From Actinomycetota bacterium (GTDB lineage: Bacteria > Actinomycetota > Acidimicrobiia > Acidimicrobiales > Ilumatobacteraceae), in NCBI GenBank assembly GCA_009711295.1, contig WLST01000003.1, positions 1 through 58,412 of the forward strand: a stretch of 58,412 bases of DNA, in the 5' to 3' direction. The notes below the pieces were generated by a model that had not been told where the DNA came from, searched no databases, and saw only the letters and a program-made list of their open reading frames with translations. Positions 11,677 through 42,995 of this stretch are shown piece by piece (positions within the stretch are counted from its first letter, which is position 1; the number at the start of each line of letters is the position of its first letter). The translations under genes were made by a program, and so were the position numbers.

Positions 11677-11678
11677 TG

Positions 11679-23051: not shown

Positions 23052-23056
23052 TGCTA

Positions 23057-23377
23057 CTAACCCTTCAAGGCCGAGAGATCGTCAACGGAAATTTCTGAGC
23101 GGCGACGCATGATTGCCACAATGATGCCAAGCCCAACAACAACCTCAGCGGCGGCAACTACGAGAACAAAAAAGACAGCGGTTTGTCCGTTGATATCGGT
23201 GAGCTTTGTCGATAACGCAACAAAGGTGAGGTTGACTGCATTGAGCATGAGCTCGATGCTCATAAACATAATGAGTGGGTTACGCCGCACAAGAACGCCC
23301 ACCATGCCAATACCGAAGAGCACTGCACCCAAAATGAGGTACCACGTAGAAGTAGGGACAATGGTTGCCAGCATCAT
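23057..23377 (-). CDS. nuoK: Complex I subunit NuoK (copy 2)
   Basis: The product is 106 residues, three transmembrane helices. Conserved: LILGAVLFGIGMVGVLVRRN, FMSIELMLNAVNLTFVALS and FVLVVAAAEVVVGLGIIVAI with both membrane glutamates. Two adjacent ATG codons (23377, 23374) overlap the nuoJ stop in ATGATG, so either may start it. Confidence 0.95.
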   Translation of the reverse strand: MMLATIVPTSTWYLILGAVLFGIGMVGVLVRRNPLIMFMSIELMLNAVNLTFVALSTKLTDINGQTAVFFVLVVAAAEVVVGLGIIVAIMRRRSEISVDDLSALKG

Positions 23378-23925
23378 GCTGTGACTCCTGTGAGGTCTTT
23401 GTCAGACTTACGCTTACGGGCCAACACTACGGTTCCGACCACGGCGACAATAAGCAAGACCGAAGTAACTTCGAAGGCCACTACATAATTGCTGAAAATT
23501 GACCGAGCAATTTGGCGAATATTTGCATCGTGATCGCCATCACTTGCCACATTGATGCCATCGCCACGCATGTTTAATGAATCGCGGCCTTGCAAAATGG
23601 TGGTGACGAGCAGTGCAACAAAACCAAAACCCAGAACTATTGCTAATGGTCGTTGAATTCCGAGCGGTTCGGTTTCTAAATTCTCTGCACGATCAACGCC
23701 CAAGAGCATGATGACGAACAAGAAGAGCACAACGATTGCGCCAGCGTAAACAACTACTTGCACTGCTGCAAGAAACTCTGCATGTTGGGAAACAAACATC
23801 ACGGCAATTCCGAACAATGTGAGTACCAAACTCAAAGCAGCGTGTACAGGGTTTGAACGAAGAACAACCCCCAACGCACCACCAAGCACCATTACAGAAG
23901 CACAAATAAAGACGAAGAGTTCCAT
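23374..23925 (-). CDS. nuoJ: Complex I subunit NuoJ (copy 2)
   Basis: The product is 183 residues, five transmembrane helices. Conserved: VLRSNPVHAALSLVLTLFGI, VSQHAEFLAAVQVVVYAGAI and VVLFLFVIMLLGVD. A polar loop (GDGINVASDGDHDANIRQ) precedes the last helix. It lies directly after nuoI (stop and start adjacent) and overlaps nuoK. Confidence 0.94.
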   Translation of the reverse strand: MELFVFICASVMVLGGALGVVLRSNPVHAALSLVLTLFGIAVMFVSQHAEFLAAVQVVVYAGAIVVLFLFVIMLLGVDRAENLETEPLGIQRPLAIVLGFGFVALLVTTILQGRDSLNMRGDGINVASDGDHDANIRQIARSIFSNYVVAFEVTSVLLIVAVVGTVVLARKRKSDKDLTGVTA

Positions 23926-24567
23926 TTATTCGGCGTCCCTCTCACTTTGAGTTGGCTCTGGGGCGCGGACCCCATAACCAAGTTCACCGCTCCATGCAAC
24001 GACACCTTCAAATTCTGCGTTGCCACTTGGCGACGTGGCACGCATCCAACCAGAGGTGTTCATGTCTTCACCTGGTCGCCAGTCTTCCCACGGCAAATGT
24101 TGCGGCAAACCTGCATCGTCGACAAGGAGCTCTTTTTTCGTGTAGATCGCATCTTGGCGATTTGTAAATGAGAATTCAAAGAGTTTTGTTTCCGTGATTG
24201 CTTCGGTCGGGCACGCTTCAACACACAAGTCACAGTGAATGCAACGCAGGTAATTGATCTCATAAATAAAGCCGAACCGTTCACCAGGTGACGTGGGCTC
24301 CATGGGGTCGTTGTCTTTACCGCGCACATAGATGCAGCGTGCGGGGCAAACGCCTGCACAGAGTTCGCAGCCGATGCATTTTTCCATGCCATCTTCGTAT
24401 CGGTTCAGAACATGGCGCCCGTGCATCCGCTCGGGCTTTGCAATTTTTTCGTCACTACTTGCTTTTTTTCCTTTGCGGAACATGCGTCCACCGGAATATT
24501 CAGTGGTCACGCGATTGCGTTTACCGTGTTGACGAACAGTTACAAGAAAGCCACCTAGGTACCCCAT
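23926..24567 (-). CDS. nuoI: Complex I subunit NuoI (copy 2), 2x[4Fe-4S]
   Basis: The product is 213 residues, longer than copy 1 through a charged C-terminal extension (after [20 protein letters not shown]). Two cluster motifs: [17 protein letters not shown] and [15 protein letters not shown]. The N-terminus [17 protein letters not shown] is the membrane-contact helix. The ATG overlaps the nuoH stop (TAATG). It carries electrons from NuoG to NuoB in the complete enzyme. Confidence 0.95.
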
Positions 24568-25805
24568 TAGAAAGATGCCCCTTCTGATTCACGATTTTTT
24601 GCACTGGCCCTGAATGCCAACTGCATAAAAATAAAGCACACCAATATGACTGCAATAGACAGTGGCATCACAATGAGTTGATCCCAATTTTCATTGTCAG
24701 CAAGTCGTTGCGCTGCAAGAAGCATGAACCAACCGAGTGATGCAGGAATAAGGAACTTCCACCCAAGATCCATGAGTTGGTCGTAGCGAAAACGTGGCAA
24801 CGATGCTCGGAACCAAATGTAGATGTAAAGGAAGACCAGTACTTTGGCAATGAGCCAGATACTGCCTTCAAGTGAGTTATTCACGAGTGGAATATCGAGC
24901 GTGGTGTTGCCAATGCTGATGGGCTGTGGACCACCAAAGAACAAGGTAACGATGACTGCAGACATCGTGATTGTGTTCATAAATTCGGCAAGGAAAAAGA
25001 GCGAGAAGCGAATTGATGAATACTCGGTGTTGAATCCACCTACTAATTCCTGCTCGGCTTCTACTAAGTCGAAAGGTGGTCGATTGAGTTCTGCAGTTGC
25101 TGAAATCATGAAGATGGCAAAAGGAATAACACCAGTTGCCACAATGTTCCACGAACCGAGTGAACTTTGTGAACCGACGATGCCGCTCGTCGACAGTGTT
25201 CCCGTCACCAAAATAACTGCGGCTAATGACAGCCCAAGAGCTGCTTCATAACTGACCATTTGTGCAGATGCACGAACTGAACCGAGCAAAGGATATTTCG
25301 AACCACTCGACCAACCTGCCAACATGATGCCGTAGACCGCGATAGAGGAAATGGCGAGCGCAAAAAGTACACCAATGGGTGGGTCGGCAAGTTGTACTCG
25401 TGTTTGGTGCCCGAACCACGTAACGAGCCCACCATTGCCATTGCGGTAGTCACCACCGAGCGGGATGATTGCAAAAGCGAGAAACGCGGGAACAAACGAG
25501 AGGTACGGTGCAAGCCGGAAAACGAGTTTGTCAGATCTTTCAGGCAAAAGATCTTCTTTAAAGAACAACTTGATGCCGTCTGCCAAAGTTTGCAACAAAC
25601 CAAATGGCCCCGCTTTATTTGGGCCAATACGGTTTTGCATGCCAGCAATAGCTTTGCGTTCAAACCACACCATCAACATGGTTGCAACAAGACCAATGAC
25701 AAAAACAACCAACACTTTGAGGACCACAATGAGAAGAGGTGTCCACAAAAGACCCCCATCGAATAGTGGGTCAATTCCTAACAGTGAATGAGTCAGCGCA
25801 ATCAC
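24567..25805 (-). CDS. nuoH: Complex I subunit NuoH (copy 2)
   Basis: The product is 412 residues, with an N- and C-terminal extension relative to copy 1. Conserved: [57 protein letters not shown] with the following YEAALG, and [20 protein letters not shown]. It forms the quinone cavity in the 14-subunit enzyme. It overlaps the nuoG stop by 4 bases (ATGA). Confidence 0.95.
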
Positions 25806-28117
25806 GACAGGTTCTCCACTCGAACATCGACAATGAGATCATCTGCATTGAGTAATTCACGAATATCGGTTCCGGGCTGGTTGAAAGGAACCCACGCCGT
25901 ACCTTTTAGTACCGTCTCGTCAGCATGCAAAGTCAAAATGACAGATTTTGATGACGTAGATACCTTCACATCTTTTCCAACAGAAGCTCCGAGGCGCTCA
26001 ATATCGCGGGGATTCAAATAGATGCCAGCACCAATACTGAGGTGGGCTAGTGACGGACTCGTTACTGTGCTCACCGCATTGTCATACATCTTGCGCGATA
26101 CCACTAGCCGTAGGTCGTACGAATTGCGTTCAGGAGCAGAACTTCCCGCTACCGACAGAGCTTGTTGAACTTGCGGCGTTGCGTCTTTTGCTGTGAGGTC
26201 GTTCAGAGATTCCACACCAATGTCTGCGCCAAGTTGCTCAGCTAATTCGGTTGCAATCATCCAATCGGGACGCGAGGTTCCACGCGCAGTAATTTTCTGA
26301 CTCAGCGGCAGTACATGACCTTCAAGGTTTGTTGTTGTGCCGCCACGTTCTGCATACGCAGCCGCAGGAAGCACAACATCTGCTCGCAAAGTAGAAGCTG
26401 TGGGAAAAGTATCGACTGCAATGACATTACGTGCACTAGCTAGCGCGCGGCGGGCGAGATCGAGATCTGGGACATCAGACAATGGATCTGCTCCAAGCAA
26501 AATGAGGCACTCAATGTGTCCTTCACTTGCCGCAGTGAGAATGTTGCGAGCGTTGTCTCCTGCAGTAAGACCAGCAGCTGCTGCACCACGAATATTTCCA
26601 CGACGAAGAACAGGTAACACGGTGACGGCGGGGTAAGCAGCAGCTATTGCGTTGTACGCCTGTGCCGTGAAATCACTTGATTCGGCGAGGTTCGCGCGTC
26701 CTAAAACGACAACAACATTGCCTTTGCGCATCTGTCCGGCAATCTCTGGGTCATTGAGTGCAGCATTGACAGCAGCAACTTGTGCACCTGGTTCATAGTT
26801 CAACGATTTCCATGCGTACCGAGTAAGACCTGAGGCTTTAGTGGTGAACTCAATAATACGCGTGCGATTTTTTGTTGCAGCGTCGCGCAATCGGAGGTAC
26901 AGAACGGGAAGTTCTTCTTTGAGATCTGGGCCGAGCAAAATCACTGTTGTTGCTGAAGTTGCATCATTAATTGTTGCTTGCGGCAAATTGAATACTTCAG
27001 TGGAAAGACCGTCGTCTAGTTGCGCATCGTGCAATGTGATGCCCAATTTGCTTGCCAACATTGCCCATGCCCGTGCATCTTCGTTTGCGAGACGAGCTCC
27101 GCCCAAAATGGCAACACTATTTGCACCTTGAGAACTCATCGCAAGGCGAATGGTTCGTGCAGCAACTTCTAGAGCCTTCGCCCAAGAGGTGGGAACGAGC
27201 GACGCATCTTCTTTAACGAGCGGTGTCGTGAATCGATCATCACTATTGATGGACTCAAAGTTGAATCGACCACGATCGCACAGCCAACCCCAGTTAGCTC
27301 CGTCGTTGTCGTGACCTTGGAAACGCAACACCTGATCGCGGCTTGACTGAATAACAGTTGAGCATCCCACTGAACACGAGGTACAAGTGCTCTCGGTTTC
27401 TTCAAGATCCCATGGGCGCGCCTTAAAGCGATAGGGCTTTGCAGTGAGCGCCCCCACCGGACAAATTTGAACGGTGTTTCCCGAGAAGTAGGAAGCAAAA
27501 GGTTCATCGGGGAACGTAAGAACCTGTGTGTTGTTTCCTCGATGGGTAAATGAAATGAGTGGGTCGCCGGCAACTTCACTGGCGAATCGCGTGCAACGAT
27601 CACAGAGGATGCAGCGTTCGCGGTCGAGAAAAACTAAATCACTAATAGCAATGGGCTTTTCGTAATGGCGTTTTTCTTCAACGTAACGACTCTCACCTGG
27701 ACCGTGAGAAAAGGCCTGATCTTGAAGTGGGCACTCTCCACCTTTGTCGCACACTGGGCAGTCGAGTGGGTGATTAGCGAGAAGAAGCTCCAAAATTCCT
27801 TCTTGAGCTTTTTTCACTTGCTCCGTTTCGGTATGCACCACTTGCCCTTCAGCAACAGGAGTCATGCACGAAACCACCATCATTGGGCCACGAGGACCTT
27901 CTACTTCAACTAGGCATTGGCGACACATGCCCACTGGCTTCATGCGTGGGTGATAACAAAAGCGAGGAATGAAATCGCTCGTGCGGTCTGCTGCAGCAAT
28001 GATGAGTTCACCTTTTCGCGCAGCAACTGTTTTACCGTTAATTGTAAGACTCACTGCATTGGGGTCGATGACCACTTCAGTTTCCACTTGGTCAGGTGTT
28101 GATTCTGTGGTGCTCAT
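25802..28117 (-). CDS. nuoG: Complex I subunit NuoG
   Basis: The product is 771 residues, the large iron-sulfur subunit of the NADH module. The N-terminus is a [2Fe-2S] plant-ferredoxin-like domain (FCYHPRMKPVGMCRQC), then the His/Cys-ligated cluster region DCPVCDKGGECPLQDQAFSH and the [4Fe-4S] motif CILCDRCTRF. A CTSCSVGC...WLCDRGRF set would bind the extra N7 cluster found in many bacterial NuoG. The remainder is a molybdopterin-oxidoreductase-like domain without clear cofactor residues. There is no counterpart in the first nuo operon. Confidence 0.95.
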   Translation of the reverse strand: MSTTESTPDQVETEVVIDPNAVSLTINGKTVAARKGELIIAAADRTSDFIPRFCYHPRMKPVGMCRQCLVEVEGPRGPMMVVSCMTPVAEGQVVHTETEQVKKAQEGILELLLANHPLDCPVCDKGGECPLQDQAFSHGPGESRYVEEKRHYEKPIAISDLVFLDRERCILCDRCTRFASEVAGDPLISFTHRGNNTQVLTFPDEPFASYFSGNTVQICPVGALTAKPYRFKARPWDLEETESTCTSCSVGCSTVIQSSRDQVLRFQGHDNDGANWGWLCDRGRFNFESINSDDRFTTPLVKEDASLVPTSWAKALEVAARTIRLAMSSQGANSVAILGGARLANEDARAWAMLASKLGITLHDAQLDDGLSTEVFNLPQATINDATSATTVILLGPDLKEELPVLYLRLRDAATKNRTRIIEFTTKASGLTRYAWKSLNYEPGAQVAAVNAALNDPEIAGQMRKGNVVVVLGRANLAESSDFTAQAYNAIAAAYPAVTVLPVLRRGNIRGAAAAGLTAGDNARNILTAASEGHIECLILLGADPLSDVPDLDLARRALASARNVIAVDTFPTASTLRADVVLPAAAYAERGGTTTNLEGHVLPLSQKITARGTSRPDWMIATELAEQLGADIGVESLNDLTAKDATPQVQQALSVAGSSAPERNSYDLRLVVSRKMYDNAVSTVTSPSLAHLSIGAGIYLNPRDIERLGASVGKDVKVSTSSKSVILTLHADETVLKGTAWVPFNQPGTDIRELLNADDLIVDVRVENLS

Positions 28118-29529
28118 GATGCGTGTCCTGTTGTGCTGTTTGCTACTGCAGTAACCGGAATCCGTTTACGCGTCGTAACGCGTGCTTCAAACTCGCTACG
28201 GAACAAAGTAAGTGCAGAGTGAACGGGTGCGTACGCCGATGGACCCACAAAACAAATGGTGGTCATCTTGTATGGGAAAGGCACTGCCGACAAGCCAAGG
28301 TCGGCGTTTGATGCGTGTGGAAAATCTCCGGGGCAAATGCTGCTGCCCACTTCAATGAGTTGGTCGAGGTCGGCATCGGTACCGGTGCCTTCAACAACGC
28401 GCGTCAAAATACGTTCGAGCCATGTTCCACCTTCACGACAAGGCGTGCATTTGCCGCATGATTCGTGTGCATAGAAACGTGTGAGTGTTAACGCAGCTGC
28501 AGGAATGTCGGTGGTGTGATCCATCACCATAATTGCGCCTGAACCGAGCATCGAACCCGCTGGTCCTACTTGACTTGCTTCGAAAGGCAAATCGAGTTGA
28601 TCGGGGGTGAACCATGGCGCAGAACCACCGCCTGGCACAAAAGCTTTCAACTGATTGTCATTGCGAATTCCGCCGCAGAACTCTTCTCCGTACAAAAGAT
28701 CACGAAAAGTGGTGACACCGTTAATGATTTCAAAAACACCGGGTCGCTTCACATGACCAGACACTGCAACCATGCGTGTACCTGGCGAGGTTTTTGTACC
28801 AATTGCCGTGTACGCCTCGGAACCATTGCACAAGAGCCAAGGCAAGTTGGCAAGCGTTTCCACATTGTTCACAATGGTGGGCTGGCCATACAGACCATTT
28901 GCTGCTGGGAAGAATGGAGGCTTCAAACGCGGCATGCCACGATTTCCTTCAAGACTTTCAATGAGTGCTGTTTCTTCTCCAACGACATATGCGCCTGCAC
29001 CCCAGTGCAGCACAATGTCGACAGAGAATTTGCTGCCCAAAATATTTTTGCCAACATACCCTGCGGCATAAGCCTCATTTAATGCCGTTGCCACACGCTC
29101 TTGAGCTAAAGCCATTTCACCACGTATATAGAGGAAACAACGCGACAAGCCAGCTGCATAACATGCAATGAGACATCCCTCAATGAGTTGATGCGGATCG
29201 CGCTCCATGAGCAAACGATCTTTGTACGTGCCAGGTTCGCTTTCGTCGCCGTTCACCACTAAATACCGCGGCCACACTTCTTGTGGCGTGAGACCCCATT
29301 TCGTACCTGCAGGAAAACCAGCACCACCACGGCCAAGAACGGTTGCGTTCTTTACTTCGTCGTGCACACTGCCTGCAGGTTGCGCCAAAGCTGCTCGCAA
29401 ACCCGCATAACCGTTGGTCGCTAAATAGCGCTCGATGGTATATGAGTCGGAGAATTCAAAACGCGAGGTAACAATTTTCGGACGGTCGCCGGCCACGAAA
29501 CCTGGAGCATGCGCATAGGTACTGGTCAT
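28114..29529 (-). CDS. nuoF: Complex I subunit NuoF, NADH-binding
   Basis: The product is 471 residues. It oxidises NADH with FMN and passes electrons through a [4Fe-4S] cluster. The NADH/FMN motif is GRGGAGFPAGTKWGL, followed by NGDESEPGTYKDR and GAGAYVVGEETALIESLEG; the cluster motif is ESCGKCTPCREGG with a distal Cys in SSICPGDFP. ATG 29529 overlaps the nuoE stop by ATGA; the frame to 29553 lies within nuoE and is rejected. Confidence 0.96.
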   Translation of the reverse strand: MTSTYAHAPGFVAGDRPKIVTSRFEFSDSYTIERYLATNGYAGLRAALAQPAGSVHDEVKNATVLGRGGAGFPAGTKWGLTPQEVWPRYLVVNGDESEPGTYKDRLLMERDPHQLIEGCLIACYAAGLSRCFLYIRGEMALAQERVATALNEAYAAGYVGKNILGSKFSVDIVLHWGAGAYVVGEETALIESLEGNRGMPRLKPPFFPAANGLYGQPTIVNNVETLANLPWLLCNGSEAYTAIGTKTSPGTRMVAVSGHVKRPGVFEIINGVTTFRDLLYGEEFCGGIRNDNQLKAFVPGGGSAPWFTPDQLDLPFEASQVGPAGSMLGSGAIMVMDHTTDIPAAALTLTRFYAHESCGKCTPCREGGTWLERILTRVVEGTGTDADLDQLIEVGSSICPGDFPHASNADLGLSAVPFPYKMTTICFVGPSAYAPVHSALTLFRSEFEARVTTRKRIPVTAVANSTTGHAS

Positions 29530-30140
29530 AGTGCAGACTTTCCATCTAGCCATTCAGGCGATTCATTTACTTTTTCAGGAGCGACCGCTCCAACACCACG
29601 TTCCGCAGGAATACGTTGACGCACAGTGGCAAGAACTCCGTGCGAAGGAATTTCATCGCTGAGCTTTCCTGCAGCAAGATCGTCGATGAGTGTGTCGAGA
29701 TCTGCAGGGGTCATTTTGAATCGGTACCGATAGTTCACCTGCAAGCAGGGAGCCTCGGTGCACGCTGCTTGGCATTCAGCATGTTCCAAAGTGATGAGTC
29801 CATCGGGTGTGGTGCTTCCTGCCTTAATGCCAAGTCGCTTTTCAGCATGATGCATGAGTTCTTCTGCGCCCATCAGCGCACACGACATGGTTCCGCAAAT
29901 ATTGAGGAGATACTTTCCCACTGGTTCAAATTTGAACATTTCGTAGAACGACGCTGTTCCAAAAACTTCCGCAGGAGTGACACCTACGAGTTCAGCGATG
30001 TGCTTCATAGCGTCTTCGGCGACATAACCATCTTGTTCTTGGGCTAGATGCAAAATGGGAATGAGAGCAGACTTCGGACGTGGGTAACGCCCGATGATTT
30101 CATAAGCGATTGCGATATTTGCATCGGTGAGGCGGCTCAT
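29526..30140 (-). CDS. nuoE: Complex I subunit NuoE, [2Fe-2S]
   Basis: The product is 204 residues, the 24-kDa homologue with thioredoxin-like fold. Ligands are in NICGTMSCALMGA and HAECQAACTEAPCLQVN (C-x4-C and C-x3-C). It works with NuoF at NADH oxidation. The C-terminal region after residue about 160 is a less conserved tail. ATGA overlaps at both ends (nuoD, nuoF). Confidence 0.95.
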   Translation of the reverse strand: MSRLTDANIAIAYEIIGRYPRPKSALIPILHLAQEQDGYVAEDAMKHIAELVGVTPAEVFGTASFYEMFKFEPVGKYLLNICGTMSCALMGAEELMHHAEKRLGIKAGSTTPDGLITLEHAECQAACTEAPCLQVNYRYRFKMTPADLDTLIDDLAAGKLSDEIPSHGVLATVRQRIPAERGVGAVAPEKVNESPEWLDGKSAL

Positions 30141-31480
30141 CGGTCGACTTCTCCCAACACAGGGTCTACAGAGGAAATGACGGCCACGGCATCGGCGATG
30201 AGACCATCGCGCATCATGTGTGGCAGTGCTTGAATATTGACAAACGACGGTGCGCGCATATGCAGGCGATATGGCTTTGGTGAACCATCACTAACGATGT
30301 AACAACCAATTTCTCCACGGGGACTTTCAATGCCTACATACACTTCGCCTTCAGGCACTTTGAAACCTTCGGTGAAAATTTTGAAGTGGTGAATGAGAGC
30401 TTCCATTGACTCATCGATACGAGCACGCGGTGGCGGAGTTACTTTTTTATCTTGAATGCGGTAGTCACCCGATGGCATCTTGTCGAGAATTTGATAGACG
30501 ATCTTCATTGACTCACGAATTTCGTTCAGGCGAATTGCGTAGCGATCGAATGCATCTCCATACGAACCAACGATGACGTCGAATTCAACTTCGTCATACT
30601 TCAAATAAGGAAGATCACGACGAAGGTCCCATGCAATACCAGCGGAGCGCAAAATGGGACCCGAAGTACCAAGGGCAACTGCTTCTTCTGCAGTAATGAC
30701 ACCCACACCTTGCAGACGTTCGCGCCAAATGGGTTGGTTGGTCATGAGGACGTCGTACTCTGCCAAACGTGATGGCAAGCCTTCCAAAATGGTGAGCACA
30801 TCGTCACGCCAACCGGTTGGCAGGTCTGCAGCAAGGCCGCCAGGACGAATGAAGTTGTGGTTCATACGTAGGCCCGTTACTTTTTGGAAAAATCGCAATA
30901 CTTCTTCGCGTTCACGCCATCCGTAAATCATCATGGAAACTGCACCCATGTCCATGCCGTTTGTCGCCATGAACAGAAGGTGGCTACTCATGCGATTGAG
31001 TTCAGACAACAACATGCGCATCCATGTTGCACGTTCTGGGATATCGCCATCGATTCCCAAGAGTTTTTCCACTGCGAGCGAAAACACCAATTCGTTATTC
31101 AATGGCGAGGCATAGTCCATACGAGTGACGTTGGTGCCGCCTTGCATGTAGGTGAGTTCTTCAGCCTGCTTTTCCATTCCCGTGTGCAAATAGCCAATGA
31201 TGGGCTTGCAACGGAGAACTTTTTCACCTTGGAGTTCCAACATCAACCTCAATACACCGTGTGTGCTTGGGTGTTGTGGCCCCATGTTGATGATCATGGT
31301 TTGTTCTTCGTCGTTTTCGACAGGGCTGCTGGTGAGTTCTGCAGCAGCCTTTTCGCTCATGCGTAATACTGAACCGACTTCACGAAGTACTTCTTTTGCC
31401 GTGAGTTCACTGCGTGAACGCATTTCTTGTGGGCCTTCGCCCGTTGCTGCAGGTGTTGCAGTAATGAGATTGTTCGTCAT
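30137..31480 (-). CDS. nuoD: Complex I subunit NuoD (copy 2)
   Basis: The product is 447 residues. The quinone loop GPQHPSTHG is at residues 67-75. Position 100 is Thr (GYLHTGMEK), in place of the arginine of NuoD copy 1, as in Thermus-type enzymes; Tyr123 (RMDYASPLNNE) is the usual quinone-headgroup tyrosine. The last residues are GEVDR. An N-terminal extension of about 60 polar residues precedes the core. It is coupled to nuoC and nuoE by 4-base overlaps. Confidence 0.95.
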   Translation of the reverse strand: MTNNLITATPAATGEGPQEMRSRSELTAKEVLREVGSVLRMSEKAAAELTSSPVENDEEQTMIINMGPQHPSTHGVLRLMLELQGEKVLRCKPIIGYLHTGMEKQAEELTYMQGGTNVTRMDYASPLNNELVFSLAVEKLLGIDGDIPERATWMRMLLSELNRMSSHLLFMATNGMDMGAVSMMIYGWREREEVLRFFQKVTGLRMNHNFIRPGGLAADLPTGWRDDVLTILEGLPSRLAEYDVLMTNQPIWRERLQGVGVITAEEAVALGTSGPILRSAGIAWDLRRDLPYLKYDEVEFDVIVGSYGDAFDRYAIRLNEIRESMKIVYQILDKMPSGDYRIQDKKVTPPPRARIDESMEALIHHFKIFTEGFKVPEGEVYVGIESPRGEIGCYIVSDGSPKPYRLHMRAPSFVNIQALPHMMRDGLIADAVAVISSVDPVLGEVDR

Positions 31481-31986
31481 GACGGAGCACCTTTAAATTG
31501 CACAGGAATGCGTCCCACAGAAAAATCTTTACGCAGAGGGTGACCTTCCCAATCTTCAGGCATCAAAATGCGCGACGGGTCTGGGTGGCCTTCAAATTGA
31601 ATACCGAACATGTCGAACACTTCTCGTTCCATCGCTTCGGTCCCCGGATAAAGATCAAATGCTGTTGGCAGTGAAGCTTCACCTTCTGCAATTTGAACGC
31701 GCAATCGCAAGCGTTCGCGCCTCTCAAGTGAAATGAGGTTGAGAACTATTTCAAAACGTTCGCCAACAAGACCTGCTGGGAGCTGACGATTTGTTGAAGC
31801 GTACGTAAGAAAATCGACAGCGGTGAGGTCGGTACACATGGTGAAGGAATCGTCAATTGCCTTCTTCAACGTTGCAATATAATTCGCACGAGATACGTGA
31901 ATTACTTTTTCACCTCGCGAGCAAGTGACATCGCACCCGTACAGCTGCTCTGCGGGCGCAGGGGTATCTATTGCTGCATCACTCAT
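31477..31986 (-). CDS. nuoC: Complex I subunit NuoC (copy 2)
   Basis: The product is 169 residues, normal length. The signature is AMEREVFDMFGIQFEGHPDP followed by [16 protein letters not shown]. It holds NuoD in the peripheral arm. A 3-base gap follows nuoB, and there is an ATGA overlap with nuoD. It lacks the charged linker and acidic tail of copy 1. Confidence 0.94.
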   Translation of the reverse strand: MSDAAIDTPAPAEQLYGCDVTCSRGEKVIHVSRANYIATLKKAIDDSFTMCTDLTAVDFLTYASTNRQLPAGLVGERFEIVLNLISLERRERLRLRVQIAEGEASLPTAFDLYPGTEAMEREVFDMFGIQFEGHPDPSRILMPEDWEGHPLRKDFSVGRIPVQFKGAPS

Positions 31987-31989
31987 GGT

Positions 31990-32577
31990 TTAACGCGCTC
32001 CAAGAACTATGGGCGTAGTTGTTGCGCCCGCAGCAATTTCAGTGATGTGCACATTTGCACCGGCACCTGACGCCGCACGGCGACGCATAATTTCACCATC
32101 TTCAATGAGTTGATGCAGTGTCTCAATTGCGTGAATGAGTGTTTCTGGTGTTGGTGGGCACCCTGGTGCATATACGTCGACAGGAACAATTTGGTCGACA
32201 CCTTGCACAATTGCGTAGTTGTTGAACATGCCGCCAGTTGATGCACACACGCCCATGGAGATGACCCACTTTGGCTCCATCATCTGGTCGTACACCTGAC
32301 GCATCACGGGAGCCATTTTTTGACTAACGCGGCCAGCCACAATCATGATGTCGGCCTGGCGCGGGGATGCACGAAATACTTCCATTCCGAATCGAGCGAG
32401 GTCGTAGTGCGCTGCACCAGTTCCCATCATTTCAATTGCGCAGCATGCAAGACCAAACGTTGCTGCCCACGAAGAACGAGAACGAGACCATTTGACAAGA
32501 TCTTCAATGCGACCCGTCAGGAAGTTGTGTTCAAGCCCACCTAAACCATCGTCGAGAACGTCACGTACTAATGCCAT
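31990..32577 (-). CDS. nuoB: Complex I subunit NuoB (copy 2), [4Fe-4S] N2
   Basis: The product is 195 residues. N2 ligands: [22 protein letters not shown] and [11 protein letters not shown]. The N-terminus is [20 protein letters not shown]. It is coupled to nuoA by TAATG. The GVCASTGG cluster context differs from GSCANCGG of copy 1, showing the two NuoB proteins belong to different lineages. Confidence 0.95.
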
Positions 32578-33050
32578 TACGCTGCAAACTCCGTTTCGCG
32601 ACCATCGCTACCTACGCGGCGAACTGTTGAAGAAACCGTGCGGCTAGCCGAGATGACATCGGTGAGATGTTCATCAACACGGCGCCCACTCTTGAGCGGG
32701 CCCCAATCGAGGGCGCCACGCGCAACTACATATACAAACGTCACAAAGAAAATGGCGCTAAACGAGAGCATCTCAAAGAATCCGTACGAACCTAAAAATT
32801 CCCTGTCGACTGCAAATGGGTACACGAAAATGATTTCGATGTCGAACATAATGAAAAGCATCGCGACAATATAAAAAGACACGGGGAACCGTTGCGGATT
32901 GTCACGACTAGGAACAATGCCACATTCATACGGCGCTTCTTTGGCGGCGTTGCCTCGATTCGGTGCGAGCAAGCGCGACGCCACCAAACTGAGAACCCCA
33001 AAAAGAGTTGCCAATATTGTTAATGCGAGTATCGGGAGATACTGCCCCAT
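32577..33050 (-). CDS. nuoA: Complex I subunit NuoA (copy 2)
   Basis: The product is 157 residues, longer than copy 1 by a hydrophilic C-terminal tail of about 40 residues. Conserved: [20 protein letters not shown], carrying the family Cys, and [20 protein letters not shown]. Three transmembrane helices. The start lies 3 bases after the preceding membrane-protein gene, so the whole nuo cluster reads on from the cytochrome bc operon with no promoter gap. Confidence 0.93.
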
Positions 33051-33053
33051 GGT

Positions 33054-33878
33054 TTAAACCTTCGCCGAGTTCAACTCACCCGTTGCATTCGCCAAAACAA
33101 AACGGTCGCGACGATGTAACAACCAGCACAAAATGCCGAAGATAAGACTTGAACCGATGGTAATGAATATTGCTGGCTGACGCTTGGAACCAAGATCGCG
33201 AATCATCAGCAAATAACGATGTGGCTGTGATGAATCGATCACAGGTTTTGCAGGCGCACGACCAGGTTCAGCACGTTGCGGCAATAACGGCGCAAATTCC
33301 ACGAGCGCATAGTGCGGCTTGTGGAAAAACGCAAGGAAGTCGAGTGACTCATTGATCTTTGGTGAACGCTCTCCACCGCGGTCGTATACCGACAACGTGA
33401 GATATTCCCCGGCAGCAAACTCTTTCGCTTTATTTTGAATGATGTCGTCTGCAGATGCAGCTGCTTGTCCGCGTCGTGGGTCTGCATCGTCGAGGCGTAC
33501 CCATTTTTCTGCTTCAAGTTGCTTCTTGACGGTTGCTGCTACTTCTGCCGGTGACGAACCAGCTGCCACTTTGATGGGCACATCAATCACTTCTGCACTA
33601 TTCAAATAAGTGCCGTCGCGGATAATGGAGATGGGGTTCGCAGGCTTCCACGTTGGTTCACGGCCTTTCAAACCAATCCCATACACCATCCAGATAGCAC
33701 CCATTGTTGCCAACCAGCCAAAAAGTGCGGCAACGGAAACCAGAATGCCTAAACGTGCGCCGAGGTTGGTACCAATAACCAGGTAGGTGCCTCCGCATAA
33801 CGTCAGGAACATACAGAGCACCACAATGATGCCGCGAATGTTGGGATCCCAACTGATGGCAAAAAGTGCAGACAACAT
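33054..33878 (-). CDS. Membrane protein of unknown function in the cytochrome bc operon
   Basis: The product is 274 residues and is not recognised. The first 70 residues hold about three hydrophobic segments (IIVVLCMFLTLCGGTYLVIG, LGILVSVAALFGWLATMGAI). A soluble middle of about 150 residues, with a lysine/glutamate helix (AEVAATVKKQLEAEKWV), follows. One helix near the C-terminus (AIFITIGSSLIFGILCWLLH) precedes a short charged tail. No cofactor motif is present. It is the last gene of the bc block, overlapping the cytochrome c gene by 1 base and 3 bases before nuoA, so it is likely a subunit or assembly factor of one of these complexes. Confidence 0.75.
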   Translation of the reverse strand: MLSALFAISWDPNIRGIIVVLCMFLTLCGGTYLVIGTNLGARLGILVSVAALFGWLATMGAIWMVYGIGLKGREPTWKPANPISIIRDGTYLNSAEVIDVPIKVAAGSSPAEVAATVKKQLEAEKWVRLDDADPRRGQAAASADDIIQNKAKEFAAGEYLTLSVYDRGGERSPKINESLDFLAFFHKPHYALVEFAPLLPQRAEPGRAPAKPVIDSSQPHRYLLMIRDLGSKRQPAIFITIGSSLIFGILCWLLHRRDRFVLANATGELNSAKV

Positions 33879-34939
33879 CAGAGGCTCCTTACGTATTCCA
33901 CGATGGATTTAATTTGCTCATCGGTGTAGATACCGCCGAAACCAGGCATGCGTCCTCCGCCTTGACCTTGTTCTCCGTATTTCTTTCCGTACTCTGAGCC
34001 ACCCTTGATGAAGGCGATCATGTCGTCTTGATTAGGGAATTGGCGAATGCTGGATCCGCCGGTGAGGTTTGGTCCGAAAGCTCCACCGCCGGTGACTTGT
34101 GGGTCACCGTATGACCAGCCCTTGGTATGGCAACGTGCACATGCATACGCGCCACCGTTGAGATCGAGGTTGAAGAGCGCTTCGCCGACAGATTTGTAGG
34201 CACCACTTTTCACTAAGCGCTCAGCTTCGGCTTGCACTTCACCCTGCGCGGCCGCTGGCATTGTTCCGCCAACACAGGTGCGCGCATCGTCGTTTGGATT
34301 ATCGCAATTTTCACGCGGCACTTGAATAGTGCGGAGATAGATAATGAGGTTATTGATTTGCTGATCGTTCATTGGGCCACCACCAACAAGGCCCCACGGT
34401 GACATTGGTGAGAACGGACGACCGTATTCCAAGATGAAACGCACTTCCGATTCGGCGAATCGGTGGTACACATTATTTAAAGCAGGTGCTTTCCAGGTCA
34501 CCGACTTCACTTCTCCGGTTTTTGCATCGGTGATGGCGAATGGTGCACTACCACCAGTTGCTTTCATACCGCCATGGCAACCTGCACAGTTAAAACCACC
34601 TTCGGCTGTTGGTGCAAAAAGCTTTGAACCCCAACTAGCAAAACGCTTATCGAAACCGCGTACCGCACCTTCTTGGCGACCAGGTTCAAGCACCCAATAC
34701 AAAGGCAGCGACACAGTGATGACAGCAAGGAAAGCCAAACCGAGCAATTGCGTACGTTCAATTTTCTTGCCTTCAAGAACTTCATCGTCGTAATACGGCT
34801 TACGGTTTGCTGCAAGCTCAATTTCTGAACCGAGTTCACGACGTGATCCACGAATATTAAAAAGTCCGTAGAGCACCCATCCGATGAGCACTACTGCAAG
34901 GATGATCCAAGCAACGTTTGTTGTTATTGCTGCAATCAT
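33878..34939 (-). CDS. Membrane-anchored diheme cytochrome c of the bc complex
   Basis: The product is 353 residues. Two heme-c sites are seen: NCAGCHG near residue 118 and CARCHTKG near 264. Two hydrophobic segments lie at the N-terminus (AWIILAVVLIGWVLYGLF and LLGLAFLAVITVSLPLYWVL). Candidate Met ligands are in FSPMSPWG and GGGRMPGFGG. It plays the part of cytochrome c1/QcrC, taking electrons from the Rieske protein outside the membrane. A Cys pair between the hemes (ENCDNPNDDARTC) may form a disulfide. It overlaps the next gene by 1 base. Confidence 0.87.
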   Translation of the reverse strand: MIAAITTNVAWIILAVVLIGWVLYGLFNIRGSRRELGSEIELAANRKPYYDDEVLEGKKIERTQLLGLAFLAVITVSLPLYWVLEPGRQEGAVRGFDKRFASWGSKLFAPTAEGGFNCAGCHGGMKATGGSAPFAITDAKTGEVKSVTWKAPALNNVYHRFAESEVRFILEYGRPFSPMSPWGLVGGGPMNDQQINNLIIYLRTIQVPRENCDNPNDDARTCVGGTMPAAAQGEVQAEAERLVKSGAYKSVGEALFNLDLNGGAYACARCHTKGWSYGDPQVTGGGAFGPNLTGGSSIRQFPNQDDMIAFIKGGSEYGKKYGEQGQGGGRMPGFGGIYTDEQIKSIVEYVRSL

Positions 34940-34941
34940 GT

Positions 34942-35781
34942 TTAGTGACCTCCGCCTACACAGTGAGGACCTTCTGCTTCTTGACCAGTGGTATTTGTGC
35001 CAATTGGTGGACCGCCAAATACTGCACCCGTATCGATAACGAGAACACCGTTGTTAATTGCTACACCAAAGCGGTCCATGCCTCGTGGAGCTGGTCCACC
35101 CTTTTTCTCACCAACGCGGTTGTACTGCGAGCCGTGACATGGGCATTCAAACCATTGCGAACTTTGGCAGTTAGGAACACGGCAACCAAGGTGCGGGCAC
35201 TTTTGGTACAACGCCACAACACCAGCTTCCATACCGGCATACACAGGGGCTTGCTTGCCGTAAACAGGCTGTGCTTTTGACAGTGCATCTTTCGGGTACT
35301 CAGTTACCCACGCACGTGCTTCTGAAAGATATAAAAACCCTTTGTTGCCGCGAATGGATTGGATGACGTCGTCAATTTTTCCAGCACTGATTTTGGAACC
35401 GAAACCGCCAGAGGCGCCTTTCCACAAAAACCCAACGAGCGAAGCGCCAAATGCACCAAGGCTTGTGCTGAGCATGATGACGGTTGCGCGGTTGAAGAAG
35501 CTACGACGTGTTTCGCCAAGCACTTCTGCATCGGGTGCAACCCATTGCTCAATTTCTGCTGCTGCAGGAATTGCGAGCTCGGTAGATGCTGCAGTTGCAG
35601 CAGCTTCGAATGCGCGACCAGTTGGCACGGATGCCGTTGCACTCTTATCGCGCTTCTTTGTTTCACGCGAAAGTGCGCCGGCGCCACGAACACCAGTTTT
35701 ACGTGATGCAGTAACGAAAACTAAACCACCTAAAACAACAATGGCAGCAACTGCTATGGCGATGATGAGGGAAGTGCTCAT
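34942..35781 (-). CDS. qcrA: Rieske iron-sulfur protein of the cytochrome bc complex
   Basis: The product is 279 residues. The Rieske motifs CPHLGC (ligands Cys195, His197) and CPCHGS (Cys213, His216) bind a [2Fe-2S] cluster, with Cys200 and Cys215 as the usual disulfide pair. An extra Cys205 lies between. Residues 1-24 form a transmembrane helix, then a polar linker, then a twin-arginine motif (TRRSFFNRAT) directly before a second helix, typical of Tat-inserted Rieske proteins. It passes electrons from quinol to the cytochrome c encoded 2 bases downstream. Confidence 0.93.
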   Translation of the reverse strand: MSTSLIIAIAVAAIVVLGGLVFVTASRKTGVRGAGALSRETKKRDKSATASVPTGRAFEAAATAASTELAIPAAAEIEQWVAPDAEVLGETRRSFFNRATVIMLSTSLGAFGASLVGFLWKGASGGFGSKISAGKIDDVIQSIRGNKGFLYLSEARAWVTEYPKDALSKAQPVYGKQAPVYAGMEAGVVALYQKCPHLGCRVPNCQSSQWFECPCHGSQYNRVGEKKGGPAPRGMDRFGVAINNGVLVIDTGAVFGGPPIGTNTTGQEAEGPHCVGGGH

Positions 35782-35791
35782 GATGTGATCC

Positions 35792-36535
35792 TCACAACTC
35801 GAAGAAAATGCCGTCGCGCCATGGGAACGTAAAGTTGAACCCTGGGCCGCGGAAGAACGAACCGATAATGACCAGCACTGCCCAGAACATGAGGTGCACT
35901 GTCATGATGCTGGTAGCAAATTTGCGATCTTCGGGTTTATTCGAAGGATTGCGATCTGTATACGGAGCAAGTATGAGAATGATGATTCCCATTCCAGGAA
36001 CGGTTACACCAGCCACCATGGGGTGGAACATGGTGAGAAGCTCTTGCAGACCCAAGAAGTACCAAGGTGCTTTTGATGGGTTAGGTGTCTGGTTGAAGTT
36101 TGCAGCTTGGAGAAGCGGAGCATTAACCAACCACGAAAAGATGAACAGGAACGCAGTACATGCAAGCGCCGCAACAAACTCAATTCCGAGCAAGTGTGGC
36201 CATGTGTGCACCTTGTCGATAGGTGCTGCTTTTACTTCTTGAATAGAACCTGACTTCACAACAGTCAACAACCGCTGCGTGTGGCCTCCGGGTCCGGCAC
36301 CAACAGGTACGCCGCCGCCAGCAGGGGCGGCAACGACCGCAGCTGCTTTGTCAGCAACCGCAACTGCACCAGCTGATGCTCCACCTGGACGCGCAGCTTT
36401 ACTGCGCTCCAAGAGATGATCGGGAATGCGTGAATCGCTTGGGCTACTGCTTGCAGAGGATGCCGCAGCATCTTCGGCGGTTTTTTCACGAGCAGCTTGC
36501 GCACGCTTCAATAGATGTTCAGGGATCTCAGTCAT
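35792..36535 (-). CDS. Cytochrome b C-terminal half (subunit IV type) with N-terminal motif repeat
   Basis: The product is 247 residues. The C-terminal 140 residues match the subunit IV/PetD half of cytochrome b with about three helices; the Qo-site loop is KAPWYFLGLQELL in place of PEWY, as in several bacterial menaquinol-linked enzymes. The N-terminal 105 residues are an unusual cytosolic extension, Ala/Ser-rich, with the same short motif twice: IPEHLLKRA (4-12) and IPDHLLERSK (37-46). The cytochrome c encoded at 38415 begins with the same motif. It is co-transcribed with the b6 half 14 bases upstream. Confidence 0.92.
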   Translation of the reverse strand: MTEIPEHLLKRAQAAREKTAEDAAASSASSSPSDSRIPDHLLERSKAARPGGASAGAVAVADKAAAVVAAPAGGGVPVGAGPGGHTQRLLTVVKSGSIQEVKAAPIDKVHTWPHLLGIEFVAALACTAFLFIFSWLVNAPLLQAANFNQTPNPSKAPWYFLGLQELLTMFHPMVAGVTVPGMGIIILILAPYTDRNPSNKPEDRKFATSIMTVHLMFWAVLVIIGSFFRGPGFNFTFPWRDGIFFEL

Positions 36536-36549
36536 GGTTCACCTACCTG

Positions 36550-37335
36550 TCACAACGGACCAGAAATGCCGCCGTCTTTACGTACCCGCCAGAAGTGGAT
36601 AGCCATAAAGATGACGATGACGAATGGAAGTAGCAATACGTGGAGCACGTACCAACGCAACAATGTTTCTGCACCAATTTCGACGCCACCCAAAAGCACG
36701 AAGCGCACTTGAGCACCCATGATGGGCGTGTAACCCATCATGTTGGTTCCTACTGCAACGGCCCATAGAGCTAACTGGTCCCATGGCAACAAGTAACCAG
36801 TGAAAGAGAGCAGAAGTGTGAGCGTTAACAACACCACGCCAATGACCCAGTTGAATTCACGTGGCGGTTTGTATGCACCGTGATAAAACACACGAGCCAT
36901 GTGCAAGAACACACTCAACACCATGAGGTGAGCACCCCATCGATGCATATTTCGCACGAGCAAACCAAACGTCACCGAAGTTTGCAGCGTTTGAATGTCT
37001 TGCCAAGCGTTCGCAGTTGTCGGCCGGTAGAAGAACATCAAGAAGATGCCCGTGACCGTGAGCAAAATAAACAAGAAGAATGAAAGCCCGCCTAAGCACA
37101 ATGTGTAGCTGACCTTCACCGCATGTCGCTTCACCTTCACCGGATGGAGGTGATACAGAACCGAGTTCATAATGACGTATGAACGGTTGCGTGGTGAATC
37201 GGTGTAACCCTTGCGGAAGATGGAACCAGGTCGGAAAATGGAACTCCACGCCTGACTACCTTGCACCTGCTGGCCAATTTTTGCAGCGCGATCTTTCAGC
37301 GTTGGAGTGGGTTGATCATCAATCGTTTTTGCCAT
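36550..37335 (-). CDS. Cytochrome b N-terminal half (b6 type)
   Basis: The product is 261 residues and forms the di-heme core of a split cytochrome b. Heme ligands are His131/His145 (spaced 14) and His232/His247 (spaced 15, as in b6). Cys80 in YTLCLGG aligns with the b6f/Firmicutes cysteine that covalently holds the extra heme ci. Other b6-like features are [19 protein letters not shown] and [15 protein letters not shown]. The enzyme oxidises quinol, probably menaquinol. About 70 residues precede the first helix. Confidence 0.94.
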
Positions 37336-37346
37336 AAGGGTGCTCC

Positions 37347-37760
37347 TTAGAACCGCATGCCGTAGGCGTAGCCGTGGTTGTTAGTACGTGTATGAGAATC
37401 ACCAGTGCCCACAGGAGCGCCAACTTTCCCTAAAATAATGACGCCAGTTGGGCATCGGTCGACACAAAGTGCACAACGTGTGCACACATCATCGTCGATG
37501 ATGAACATCACGTTGTCAGAAGGGTCGAGTCCTGGCTTTTCAGTACCTTGCGCTTCAGCTACAGCGCTGGGGTCGACCATGTGAATACATTTCCACGGGC
37601 AGATGTCGACACATCCTTCGCACATAATGCACTCAGATTGATCGATATGAATGAACTGCTTTGGCTTAACGGCCTTCGACAAATAGTCGGCGTCGACTTC
37701 TACTAATTGATACTCAGTAGACCAATCGGGCATTGGCGGGTTGGCGTCTGTTTTTGCCAT
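37347..37760 (-). CDS. 2x[4Fe-4S] ferredoxin-type protein in the cytochrome bc operon
   Basis: The product is 137 residues, soluble. Two complete [4Fe-4S] sets: [15 protein letters not shown] and [14 protein letters not shown], separated by a 35-residue spacer. No Tat or secretion signal is seen, so it should be cytosolic. It lies 11 bases before cytochrome b and 8 after the 158-residue membrane protein, so it is made with the bc complex. Classical bc1 and b6f enzymes have no such subunit; it could carry electrons between the bc complex and a soluble or complex I partner. That role is inference. Confidence 0.85.
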
Positions 37761-37768
37761 AAGCCCCC

Positions 37769-38245
37769 CTATGACTTCCGCACGAGCGGACGCCCGTAGG
37801 TAGAAGTTTCAATTTCTTTCGCAGCTTCTTTGCCGCGCTTTTGCCACCAAATGAACAAAAACACCATGACGCCGATGTACACGCCGTAAATAGCCACCGC
37901 AACAATGTCGCGAACTGCTTCATATGCAAGCGTAAATGGAAAATGCCCGCCTAAAGCTTTTGGCTTCAAGATGTCGAAAGGTCCGTAGAGAATTTTGTCT
38001 TTACGCCATCCGAGGTTTTTATCGGCATGGTCAATCCATTGGTGGGGCACAACGCCGTATGCCAAGAACATGACACCAAAGGCGTATACCGAACCCAACA
38101 TTGCTTCGCCCCAAGTTAAAGGCGTTCCTGGTTTGCGTCGTTTACCGAAAGGGATGATGACGAGGGCCAAAGCAAGCGTGACAAGAAAGGAGAATATGAA
38201 AGCCTGGTTTACGCCCGGCCATTTGAGAACGTCGATTGCCAGCAT
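37769..38245 (-). CDS. Small membrane protein of unknown function, first gene of the bc operon
   Basis: The product is 158 residues and is not recognised. Three hydrophobic segments (AFIFSFLVTLALALVIIPFG, GSVYAFGVMFLAYGVVPHQW, and VAVAIYGVYIGVMVFLFIWW). The second segment is followed by WIDHADKNLGWRKDKI, with His residues that might be heme or quinone contacts. It opens the operon with a GAAAGG ribosome binding site and precedes the ferredoxin gene by 8 bases, suggesting the two form a pair. Confidence 0.75.
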   Translation of the reverse strand: MLAIDVLKWPGVNQAFIFSFLVTLALALVIIPFGKRRKPGTPLTWGEAMLGSVYAFGVMFLAYGVVPHQWIDHADKNLGWRKDKILYGPFDILKPKALGGHFPFTLAYEAVRDIVAVAIYGVYIGVMVFLFIWWQKRGKEAAKEIETSTYGRPLVRKS

Positions 38246-38414
38246 GGATCTCAGGTTGCCTTTCAGGGGTAGCAGTAGCGCGAAACTTCCGTAGAAACAT
38301 TAGTCACCGCTACGACCAAGAACAGCATTTCTCTCGAGTTCGGTACTTTTCTCTTTTGCACGTTCTCTCGCAATGATTCTGATTTTGCGTGTCAATTGCT
38401 CTATCGTGTTCCGT
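38246..38414. promoter_or_regulatory. Divergent promoter region, bc-nuo operon / cytochrome c
   Basis: This 169-base gap must drive the roughly 20-kb bc-nuo operon leftward and the cytochrome c gene rightward. For the latter, TATCGT (38402-38407) lies 7 bases before GTG 38415, a leaderless pattern. For the former, a TAATGT (minus strand, near 38300) is a candidate -10 but is weak. No Rex-type palindrome is visible. Confidence 0.45.
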
Positions 38415-39239
38415 GTGACTGAGATTCCTGAACACCTCCTCAAGCGCTCCCGTGATCGCAAGTCTGGCGACGGTGCCTCGAGCAGCGACAGCGCGACCTC
38501 TGCAGAAGGGTCAGTTCCTGCAGTTCAAAAGGCCGTAGCACCAGCTAAAACAGCTAAAAATGAGCCTTCCGTGGTTCTCGCCAAGCCCGATTCCCCCCGT
38601 GTTGCCGCAGCAAAAAGCCGCAAAAAAATCCCCTTCTGGGCGATGGCAACCTTAAGCTTGTTGCCTCTCTGGGGCTTCCTTTACGCCATTGCGTTGAAGC
38701 CCGCTGCCAAAGTTGTTGAGGGTCCCCTCGCCGTTGGCAGCCATGTTTACGCTGGGTGTGCCGGATGTCACGGTGCTGCAGGCCAGGGCGGAGCAGGTCG
38801 CATCTTGCACCAAGGCGAGGTGTTGAAGACCTTCCCTCACATTGAAGACATGCTGAACTTCGTCTATACCGGCAGCCAAGCCTATGTTTCTGCGGGAATT
38901 AAGCAATACGGCGACCCGAAGCGTGAAGGTGGAGCCCATGCTCCACTGTCGTATAACGGCAACCCCATGCCACAACAAGGTGAAACTTACGGTGGCGGCC
39001 TGTCTGAGGCAGAAATTCTCGGCGTCGTGTGCCATGAGCGCTACGTCATTGGTGGAGCCGACCCAAAGAGCGAGCAGTGGGCAGAAGAGTACGAAACTTG
39101 GTGCTCACCTGAGTCGGAAATCTTTAAAGCTCTTGAAACGGGCGGCACAACGTTCGATTCCATCTCCAAAGATTTCTCGATGCTGAAGACAAAGCCAAAC
39201 GAAATTGGCACGAAGCCTCGTGCAACTACAGCAAAATAA
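38415..39239 (+). CDS. Membrane-anchored monoheme cytochrome c with IPEHLLKRS N-terminus
   Basis: The product is 274 residues. Residues 4-12 read IPEHLLKRS, the motif also found twice in cytochrome b subunit IV. A basic Ala/Ser/Lys-rich cytosolic segment runs to about 72, then one helix (PFWAMATLSLLPLWGFLYAI), then an outer domain with the heme site CAGCHG (Cys115, Cys118, His119) and a likely Met ligand in NGNPMPQQG. A Cys pair (VVCHERYVIGG... ETWCSPE) may form a disulfide. GTG 38415 is chosen over the open frame to 38373 because of the conserved TEIPEHLL start and the -10 seven bases upstream. It is divergent from the bc operon and probably its electron acceptor. Confidence 0.86.
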   Translation: MTEIPEHLLKRSRDRKSGDGASSSDSATSAEGSVPAVQKAVAPAKTAKNEPSVVLAKPDSPRVAAAKSRKKIPFWAMATLSLLPLWGFLYAIALKPAAKVVEGPLAVGSHVYAGCAGCHGAAGQGGAGRILHQGEVLKTFPHIEDMLNFVYTGSQAYVSAGIKQYGDPKREGGAHAPLSYNGNPMPQQGETYGGGLSEAEILGVVCHERYVIGGADPKSEQWAEEYETWCSPESEIFKALETGGTTFDSISKDFSMLKTKPNEIGTKPRATTAK

Positions 39240-42211: not shown

Positions 42212-42232
42212 AACCGAATGTTATGGAGGTTG

Positions 42233-42991: not shown

Positions 42992-42995
42992 TCTT

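Follow-up and report, generated by a model that had tools for sequence, protein, structure and literature searches.

The stretch of DNA analysed here (the window) is the entire contig WLST01000003.1 (58,412 nucleotides; G000:C51 in our genome set) from the 1.87-Mb, 79% complete genome of an actinobacterium of the Ilumatobacteraceae. Positions 33054-38245 of the minus strand are occupied by seven genes arranged head to tail, with intergenic gaps of -1 to 14 base pairs (bp), in the order M158, ferredoxin, cytochrome b6, subunit IV, Rieske protein, diheme cytochrome c and M274, with nuoA starting 3 bp on. The original prediction, made from the sequence alone, read this interval as a b6-type cytochrome bc operon with extra membrane subunits. 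All the genes it named are present, but it left out the second gene of the interval (37347..37760, minus strand), which codes for a 137-residue 2x[4Fe-4S] ferredoxin recognised by the Fer4 models of Pfam and NCBIfam. This protein, denoted Fd137, and its relation to the cytochrome b complex encoded by its neighbours are the main subject of the present analysis.

The cytochrome b of the cassette is split, as had been predicted, with PF00033 and PF00032 matching the products of two neighbouring genes (all cassette genes are on the minus strand). The N-terminal half is a cytochrome b6-type subunit (36550..37335; PF00033, 160 bits; NCBIfam ExtP, 309.8 bits with a cut-off of 290), for which the closest solved relatives found by HMMER alignment are b6 chains and the nearest cytochrome b6 sequences, among the matches listed, come from loci L194 (90.8%) and L195 (90.4%). 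Cys80 (codon 37096..37098), which had been proposed to be the heme-ci cysteine, indeed aligns with C35 of the solved b6 chains; it is kept in all 39 class rows, the window included, and in the wider set it is seen in 25 of 27 rows, with L107 and L110 cut by contig ends. The C-terminal half, subunit IV (35792..36535; PF00032, 34.3 bits), has a long cytoplasmic N-terminal arm and reads APWYFL where PEWY is expected in 40 of the 41 class rows, the remaining row (L054) being cut. The Rieske [2Fe-2S] protein (34942..35781; PF00355, 41.1 bits) and the cytochrome c with its hydrophobic N-terminal part (33878..34939; PF00034, 53.9 bits) retain, respectively, the CxHxGC...CxCH motif and the two CxxCH motifs anticipated for a diheme protein in 41 of 41 class rows each. 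The length of the diheme cytochrome c varies from 321 to 640 residues; the long variants (CytC2, up to 640 residues in L054-L067 and 624 in L070) keep both hemes, and their extra length is the segment between the two. Taken together, these family and motif assignments identify the operon as coding for a b6-type Rieske/cytochrome b complex. Searches of the genome itself returned one cytochrome b (PF00033) and two COX1-family matches (PF00115) on a single contig.

The two membrane proteins of 158 and 274 residues, for which the original prediction could offer no assignment, indeed match no family at a curated cut-off, and searches by profile and by fold gave no relative in the Protein Data Bank (PDB). 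M158 (37769..38245), the first gene of the cassette in the list of open reading frames (ORFs), is modelled by AlphaFold2 with three long helices (residues 14-36, 45-76 and 108-136; mean predicted local distance difference test score, pLDDT, 81.2); it has no convincing match in Pfam or NCBIfam (the best, at 0.00077, is under the cut-off), and in the PDB a profile search gave nothing better than E 0.21 and a fold search nothing at E≤0.001. M274 (33054..33878; mean pLDDT of the structure model, 88.0) is modelled with helices at residues 12-39, 41-66 and 234-265 and an alpha/beta domain in between, and it has no Pfam or NCBIfam family and no PDB profile match at E≤1, nor a PDB fold match of the model at E≤0.001. 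Matches to M274 (E≤0.001) were found in 98 of the 119 class genomes, many of them spanning the N-terminal part only, and a short form of about 120 residues occurs in part of the class.

In all 38 class rows and all 27 wider rows, the eight ligand cysteines of Fd137 are invariant. A further cysteine, C58, stands in all 38 rows of the class and in 26 of the 27 wider ones, and the N- and C-terminal extensions are conserved within the class. The gene lies between those of M158 and cytochrome b6 in 37 of 40 class loci, the other three being cut by contig ends. Ferredoxin matches were detected in 95 of the 119 class genomes (E≤1e-40), as a single copy in 93 of them, and it is therefore very likely that Fd137 is a dedicated partner of the complex. 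Across the phylum sample, 113 of 396 genomes have a match (E≤1e-16), and in 20 loci taken from these genomes (19 that do not belong to the class, and the class-like contig G158:C115) the gene order is the same as far as the contigs reach, with M274 not recognised in one of them (L109). The cassette order thus recurs within the class and also in further families of this phylum. The class-like contig (L121) sits in a 6.5-Mb genome (contamination 5) from another part of the phylum and is probably mis-binned.

A second collection, genome_contigs, comprises 80 loci retrieved by ferredoxin similarity, among the matches listed; it overlaps with the loci of the genome set, so that the two are not independent. 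Cytochrome b6 follows the ferredoxin in 79 of these loci, the contig of L191 ending at that point; M158 was recognised in 78, and all seven genes are visible in 51, the rest being mostly cut by contig ends. The carriers, among the matches listed, include the cultured Salsipaludibacter albus and metagenome-assembled genomes (MAGs) titled Nitriliruptoraceae, Euzebyaceae, Egibacteraceae, Ferrithrix, Acidimicrobium and Microthrixaceae, and the titles are those of Actinomycetota or unnamed bacteria, besides L143 (Acidobacteria), L169 and L187. The last two, titled Bifidobacterium breve, carry the cassette and were taken for mislabelled MAGs. No description of a ferredoxin subunit in complexes of this kind was found in the open literature, subscription journals being outside the search.

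The 396 genomes were searched with cytochrome b6, and at least 209 of them match at E≤1e-25: the orthologues are about 65-90% identical to the query, and another, second set of sequences lies at about 45-56%. Among the orthologues from genomes without a ferredoxin match, seven loci (L224-L230) were found in which M158 is followed directly by cytochrome b6, and no CxxCxxCxxxCP was detected in any forward frame of the three loci searched for it. An eighth candidate, L231, was rejected because a ferredoxin overlooked by the profile search is present there. In 12 loci of the second set (L204-L212 and L214-L216), a 2x[4Fe-4S] domain resides in the ORF immediately upstream of cytochrome b, and the five such ORFs that were scanned with Pfam contain Fer4_20 and Pyr_redox_2, that is, a GltD-like NAD(P)H/FAD oxidoreductase module; in L214, only the end of the fusion ORF is on the contig. 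Neither arrangement is seen in eight further loci (L213 and L217-L223). In composition, the fusion paralogue operons of Actinomycetota resemble the complexes of anammox bacteria. In a tree of 86 cytochrome b sequences, which includes some long branches and unsure distant placements, the 12 fusion rows form one clade (100/98) beside the ferredoxin clade, and the ferredoxin-less rows require five changes inside the latter, at least four of which are forced by the starred branches. These placements indicate that the ferredoxin was present in the ancestor of this clade of complexes, with about five losses since.

Comparison, subunit by subunit, of the columns conserved in ferredoxin-bearing rows with the ferredoxin-less rows points to the arm of subunit IV. 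Five conserved columns of this protein are changed in at least two ferredoxin-less lineages or rows, three of them within residues 90-98; cytochrome b6 and the Rieske protein have two such columns each, scattered along the sequence, and the M158 alignment, with 3 conserved columns, is too divergent for a loss signal. This comparison yielded a candidate ferredoxin-docking motif, RLLTVV in the window (residues 88-93; 36257..36274, minus strand), which is part of the longer segment RLLxVV....IQ of the cytoplasmic arm. Once 60 further stretches and 16 further loci were taken into the count, RLLxVV was found wherever a ferredoxin is visible and the arm is readable (174 of 174 loci, with 144 distinct arms) and, as RLLGVV or a close form, in 12 of 12 fusion loci, compared with none of nine readable ferredoxin-less loci, which come from five genomes. 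Three other motif-bearing loci have their upstream side off the contig, and the motif was unreadable in 32 ferredoxin loci and in two ferredoxin-less ones (L225 and L226). Its position is nearly fixed, 29 residues ahead of the end of WPHL, where the first helix starts, in 185 of 186 cases. When sets of five ferredoxin-bearing rows were treated as if they lacked the ferredoxin, three or more changed columns fell within residues 88-99 in one of the 500 random sets and in none of the 300 matched sets. From this covariation, we consider it likely that the arm of subunit IV docks the ferredoxin.

The explanation that we favour for the locus as a whole, with a little more confidence than doubt, is a b6-type complex with a docked, electron-exchanging ferredoxin. 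The complex would function as a menaquinol:cytochrome c reductase and probably carries a covalent heme ci on the cytoplasmic side. Fd137 would dock at RLLxVV of the subunit IV arm, beside heme ci and the quinone-reducing (Qn) site, and could trade single electrons with both. Its role would be that of an Fe-S wire alone, open to a cytoplasmic partner; we read it this way because, in anammox bacteria, a path over Fe-S clusters has been proposed and the fusion paralogues have the same composition. On their cytoplasmic side, the anammox Rieske/b complexes carry an NAD(P) oxidoreductase that contains Fe-S clusters, and a published AlphaFold3 model traces a path from the cytoplasmic-side hemes via the Fe-S clusters to FAD (PMC12954380). 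For cytochrome b6f, it has been stated that the complex "may function as an FDX-PQ reductase", heme ci being relevant for cyclic flow (PMC13287000), with a similar statement in PMC5683061. In b6f, moreover, the N-terminus of PetD is reported to be close to Asp35 of the same protein, a residue tied to the Qi site, and electron transfer is reported to be slower when this terminus is truncated (PMC13287000).

The components of this proposal differ in strength. Exchange of electrons with heme ci or the Qn site is, in our judgement, reasonably probable. As to direction, low-potential electrons from the cytoplasm could pass through the ferredoxin to heme ci and on to menaquinone, with an ordinary Q-cycle running alongside; the potential of menaquinone is about -70 mV (PMC12954380), so that its reduction by a low-potential ferredoxin would be downhill, whereas the reverse would need bifurcation. 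Of the two directions we lean to such a net inward flow, although at somewhat less than an even chance. The most specific form of the proposal, a respiratory ferredoxin:menaquinone reductase within a b6-type complex, in which the ferredoxin clipped to the subunit IV arm feeds heme ci directly, is tentative and, as yet, doubtful.

Several observations weigh against the docked, electron-exchanging ferredoxin. The marker of pyruvate-type ferredoxin oxidoreductases, PF01855, was not found in the window's own genome, which is 79% complete, although it is present in 106 of the 119 class genomes, so that there is no clear source of electrons for the ferredoxin. Direct transfer from ferredoxin to menaquinone would also waste energy compared with complex I, an argument that the anammox authors used against electron input in their case (PMC12954380). 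Furthermore, the ferredoxin is dispensable, as seen in the seven loci without it and the approximately five losses on the tree. The motif and the range 88-99 were picked after viewing the ferredoxin-less sequences, in which the motif is readable in five genomes, representing about three losses. In the control on sets of five ferredoxin-bearing rows, five or more changed columns were obtained in 20 of 500 random and 47 of 300 matched sets; hence the clustering of the changed columns alone is unusual, and their total number is not. The genomes added as a test of the prediction were ferredoxin-bearing, with no new ferredoxin-less genome among them, so that the negative half of the correlation was not retested. 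Finally, the 2x[4Fe-4S] units of the two types of complexes are alike, but their common descent is not proven because the solved polyferredoxin FwdF scores as well (69.2 bits; the fusion ORFs score 49-72 with a profile that differs slightly).

Downstream of the cassette, 3 bp after M274 as predicted, begins a complete complex I operon, nuoA-nuoN, including nuoE, nuoF and nuoG (18041..33050, minus strand; the genes are named from sequence, with NuoA matching PF00507 at 106.3 bits). The same-strand run from M158 to nuoN (38245-18041) covers about 20 kb with gaps of at most 14 bp, the only exception being the 322-bp gap between nuoJ and nuoL, which contains nuoK. A single transcript spanning this run, as originally proposed, is possible on this layout; a scan of 32000-39000 gave 2 sigma-70-type promoter-like sites (5.2 expected) and 15 terminator-like sites (8.0 expected). 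Conservation of the gene order in other actinobacteria, which the original prediction named as a check, is seen for the seven-gene cassette; the junction is found in 15 of 40 class loci, 10 from the same family and 5 from the same order. In the remaining 25, nuoA is on the opposite strand (5), 3.7-5.9 kb on, measured stop to stop (6), or not in the stretch (14). The junction is thus confined to the window's order among the loci read, and the cassette is conserved beyond; by this distribution, the junction is older than the species and younger than the cassette.

A second complex I cluster, nuoA2, B2, C2, D2, H2, I2, J2, K2, L2, M2 and N2 without nuoE, F and G, lies on the same contig as the complete set (5330-16060, minus strand). 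NuoD2-type matches occur in 105 of the 119 class genomes: in 94 of the 95 that bear the ferredoxin, the exception being G104 (78% complete), compared with 11 of the 24 without it, kinship not being corrected for. In the phylum sample, the figures are 100 of 112 ferredoxin-bearing genomes and 34 of 284 others, again uncorrected for kinship and with incomplete genomes included, at a threshold of our choice (E≤1e-100) and with G206 dropped, its ferredoxin match being located in a fusion ORF. NuoD2 is kept in 4 of the 7 ferredoxin-less genomes. A NuoD2 match does not prove that NuoE, F and G are missing alongside, their lack being confirmed in the window only, and we treat the co-occurrence as background.

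Upstream and divergent from the cassette, Cyc288 (38373..39239, plus strand) is a one-CxxCH cytochrome c that scores 19.6 bits with PF00034, just under the cut-off of 21.3. A pattern search located the motif IP[ED]HLL[KE]R at the start of subunit IV (36504..36525, minus strand) and again in its arm (36405..36426, minus strand), and as IPEHLLKR at the N-terminus of Cyc288 (38425-38446, plus strand); these are the three occurrences in the recovered genome, all at the cassette locus. In the loci scanned with a looser form of the motif, 98 ORFs contain it, of which 96 encode subunit IV or Cyc288 and two are fragments without an assignment. Not every Cyc288 has the motif, which is lacking in 4 of 20 class rows and in 10 of 34 rows of the genome_contigs loci. 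It resembles a shared docking tag, and because it is common to Cyc288 and subunit IV, Cyc288 may belong to the complex in the window's order. Heme biosynthesis genes, hemL, hemB and downstream genes read as hemD, hemC and hemA, also lie beside the complex (39858-45165, minus strand), and hemL and hemB are found near the cassette in many other loci.

Four alternatives to the favoured explanation can be considered. The ferredoxin could be an output rather than an input, if the complex bifurcated electrons: the first electron of menaquinol would go to the Rieske protein and cytochrome c, and the second would be driven uphill, by way of hemes b and ci, to the ferredoxin, supplying low-potential reductant for biosynthesis much as NAD(P)H would be supplied by the anammox complexes. 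The fusion paralogues, which combine an NAD(P)H/FAD module with 2x[4Fe-4S] units as described for the anammox Rieske/b complexes, fit this scheme, and the anammox authors argue for NAD(P)+ reduction in that way (PMC12954380). However, bifurcation requires unusually low potentials of the b hemes, the potential of the Rieske protein cannot be read from sequence, and the operon holds only a diheme cytochrome c, with no high-potential multiheme partner; we consider bifurcation unlikely. Less probable still is a redox-sensing or structural subunit that reports the redox state of the cytoplasm to the Qn site or stabilises the complex, with no net electron transfer. Such a role would sit well with the dispensability of the ferredoxin in several lineages that retain the rest of the complex and with the regulatory role of the stromal subunit IV arm in b6f (PMC13287000), but against it stand the invariance of the eight cluster ligands and the place of the related unit in the fusion paralogues, at the end of an NAD(P)H/FAD module, like an electron wire.

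The remaining two alternatives both appear very improbable. One of them holds that the cassette is an ordinary complex III variant, the main feature of the locus being a supercomplex of complexes III and I produced from a single transcript. The 3-bp junction, the run of about 20 kb and the finding that all 15 loci sampled from the window's family and order have the junction are what this view can call upon; the junction is not seen, however, in the other 25 class loci, where the cassette is conserved, and the ferredoxin is ignored altogether. Co-transcription, moreover, is not physical association, and as evidence for a III-I supercomplex the junction is weak. The other, to which we assign the smallest chance by a shade, is that Fd137 is a soluble protein serving another enzyme and is simply co-expressed with the complex. 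It lacks a membrane segment, and cotranscription alone would hold the genes together; against this stand the gene order retained across families of the phylum, the single copy and the motif in subunit IV that tracks the presence and absence of the ferredoxin.

The proposed docking of the ferredoxin also lends itself to experiment. Nature provides a matched set of complexes, in which the 2x[4Fe-4S] unit is a separate protein, is fused to an NAD(P)H module or is missing, and a short motif follows the presence of the ferredoxin; the exchange of electrons between a b6-type complex and a ferredoxin thereby becomes testable by comparing and swapping parts. If the proposal is true, it would give the respiratory chain of a large, little-studied group of Actinomycetota an additional entry point, and the route that is suspected, although unproven, for cyclic flow through b6f would exist as a permanent, separable subunit in non-photosynthetic bacteria.

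Among the known systems, the actinobacterial bcc complex (QcrABC) shares the core of Rieske protein, cytochrome b and diheme cytochrome c. However, the window proteins score far under the cut-offs of the respective models (120.4 of 500 bits for QcrB and 19.5 of 275 for QcrA), and cytochrome b is split in the window complex. The selenite and tellurite reduction operons that encode ExtP and ExtQ are close in one subunit: cytochrome b6 exceeds the ExtP cut-off (309.8 compared with 290 bits), whereas subunit IV stays under that of ExtQ (56.1 compared with 150 bits). Unlike the Ext operons, the window has a respiratory cassette with a Rieske protein and a diheme cytochrome c, and no other Ext family is among the matches of its ten scanned proteins.

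The anammox complexes Kuste4569-4574 and Kustd1480-1485 (PMC12954380) share the b6-like split cytochrome b and the proposed Fe-S wire on the cytoplasmic side. It is the fusion paralogues (L204-L212 and L214-L216) that match them in composition as described; the window complex differs from them in having a separate 2x[4Fe-4S] protein only, without an FAD/NAD(P)H module, for which no protein was found in the operon with Pfam, and without a multiheme cytochrome c. With cytochrome b6f, the window complex has in common the split cytochrome b, with PF00033 and PF00032 on separate neighbouring genes, the cysteine at the heme-ci position, b6 chains as the best solved relatives and the cytoplasmic N-terminus of subunit IV. 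It differs from b6f in that a diheme cytochrome c takes the place of cytochrome f, no model of which is among the Pfam and NCBIfam matches of the ten proteins scanned, and in the far longer cytoplasmic arms of its cytochrome b and its subunit IV, the APWY in place of PEWY, the two unassigned membrane subunits and the dedicated ferredoxin gene. Relative to the known b6-type Rieske/cytochrome b complexes, the distinguishing feature is the ferredoxin, a probable electron-exchange subunit.

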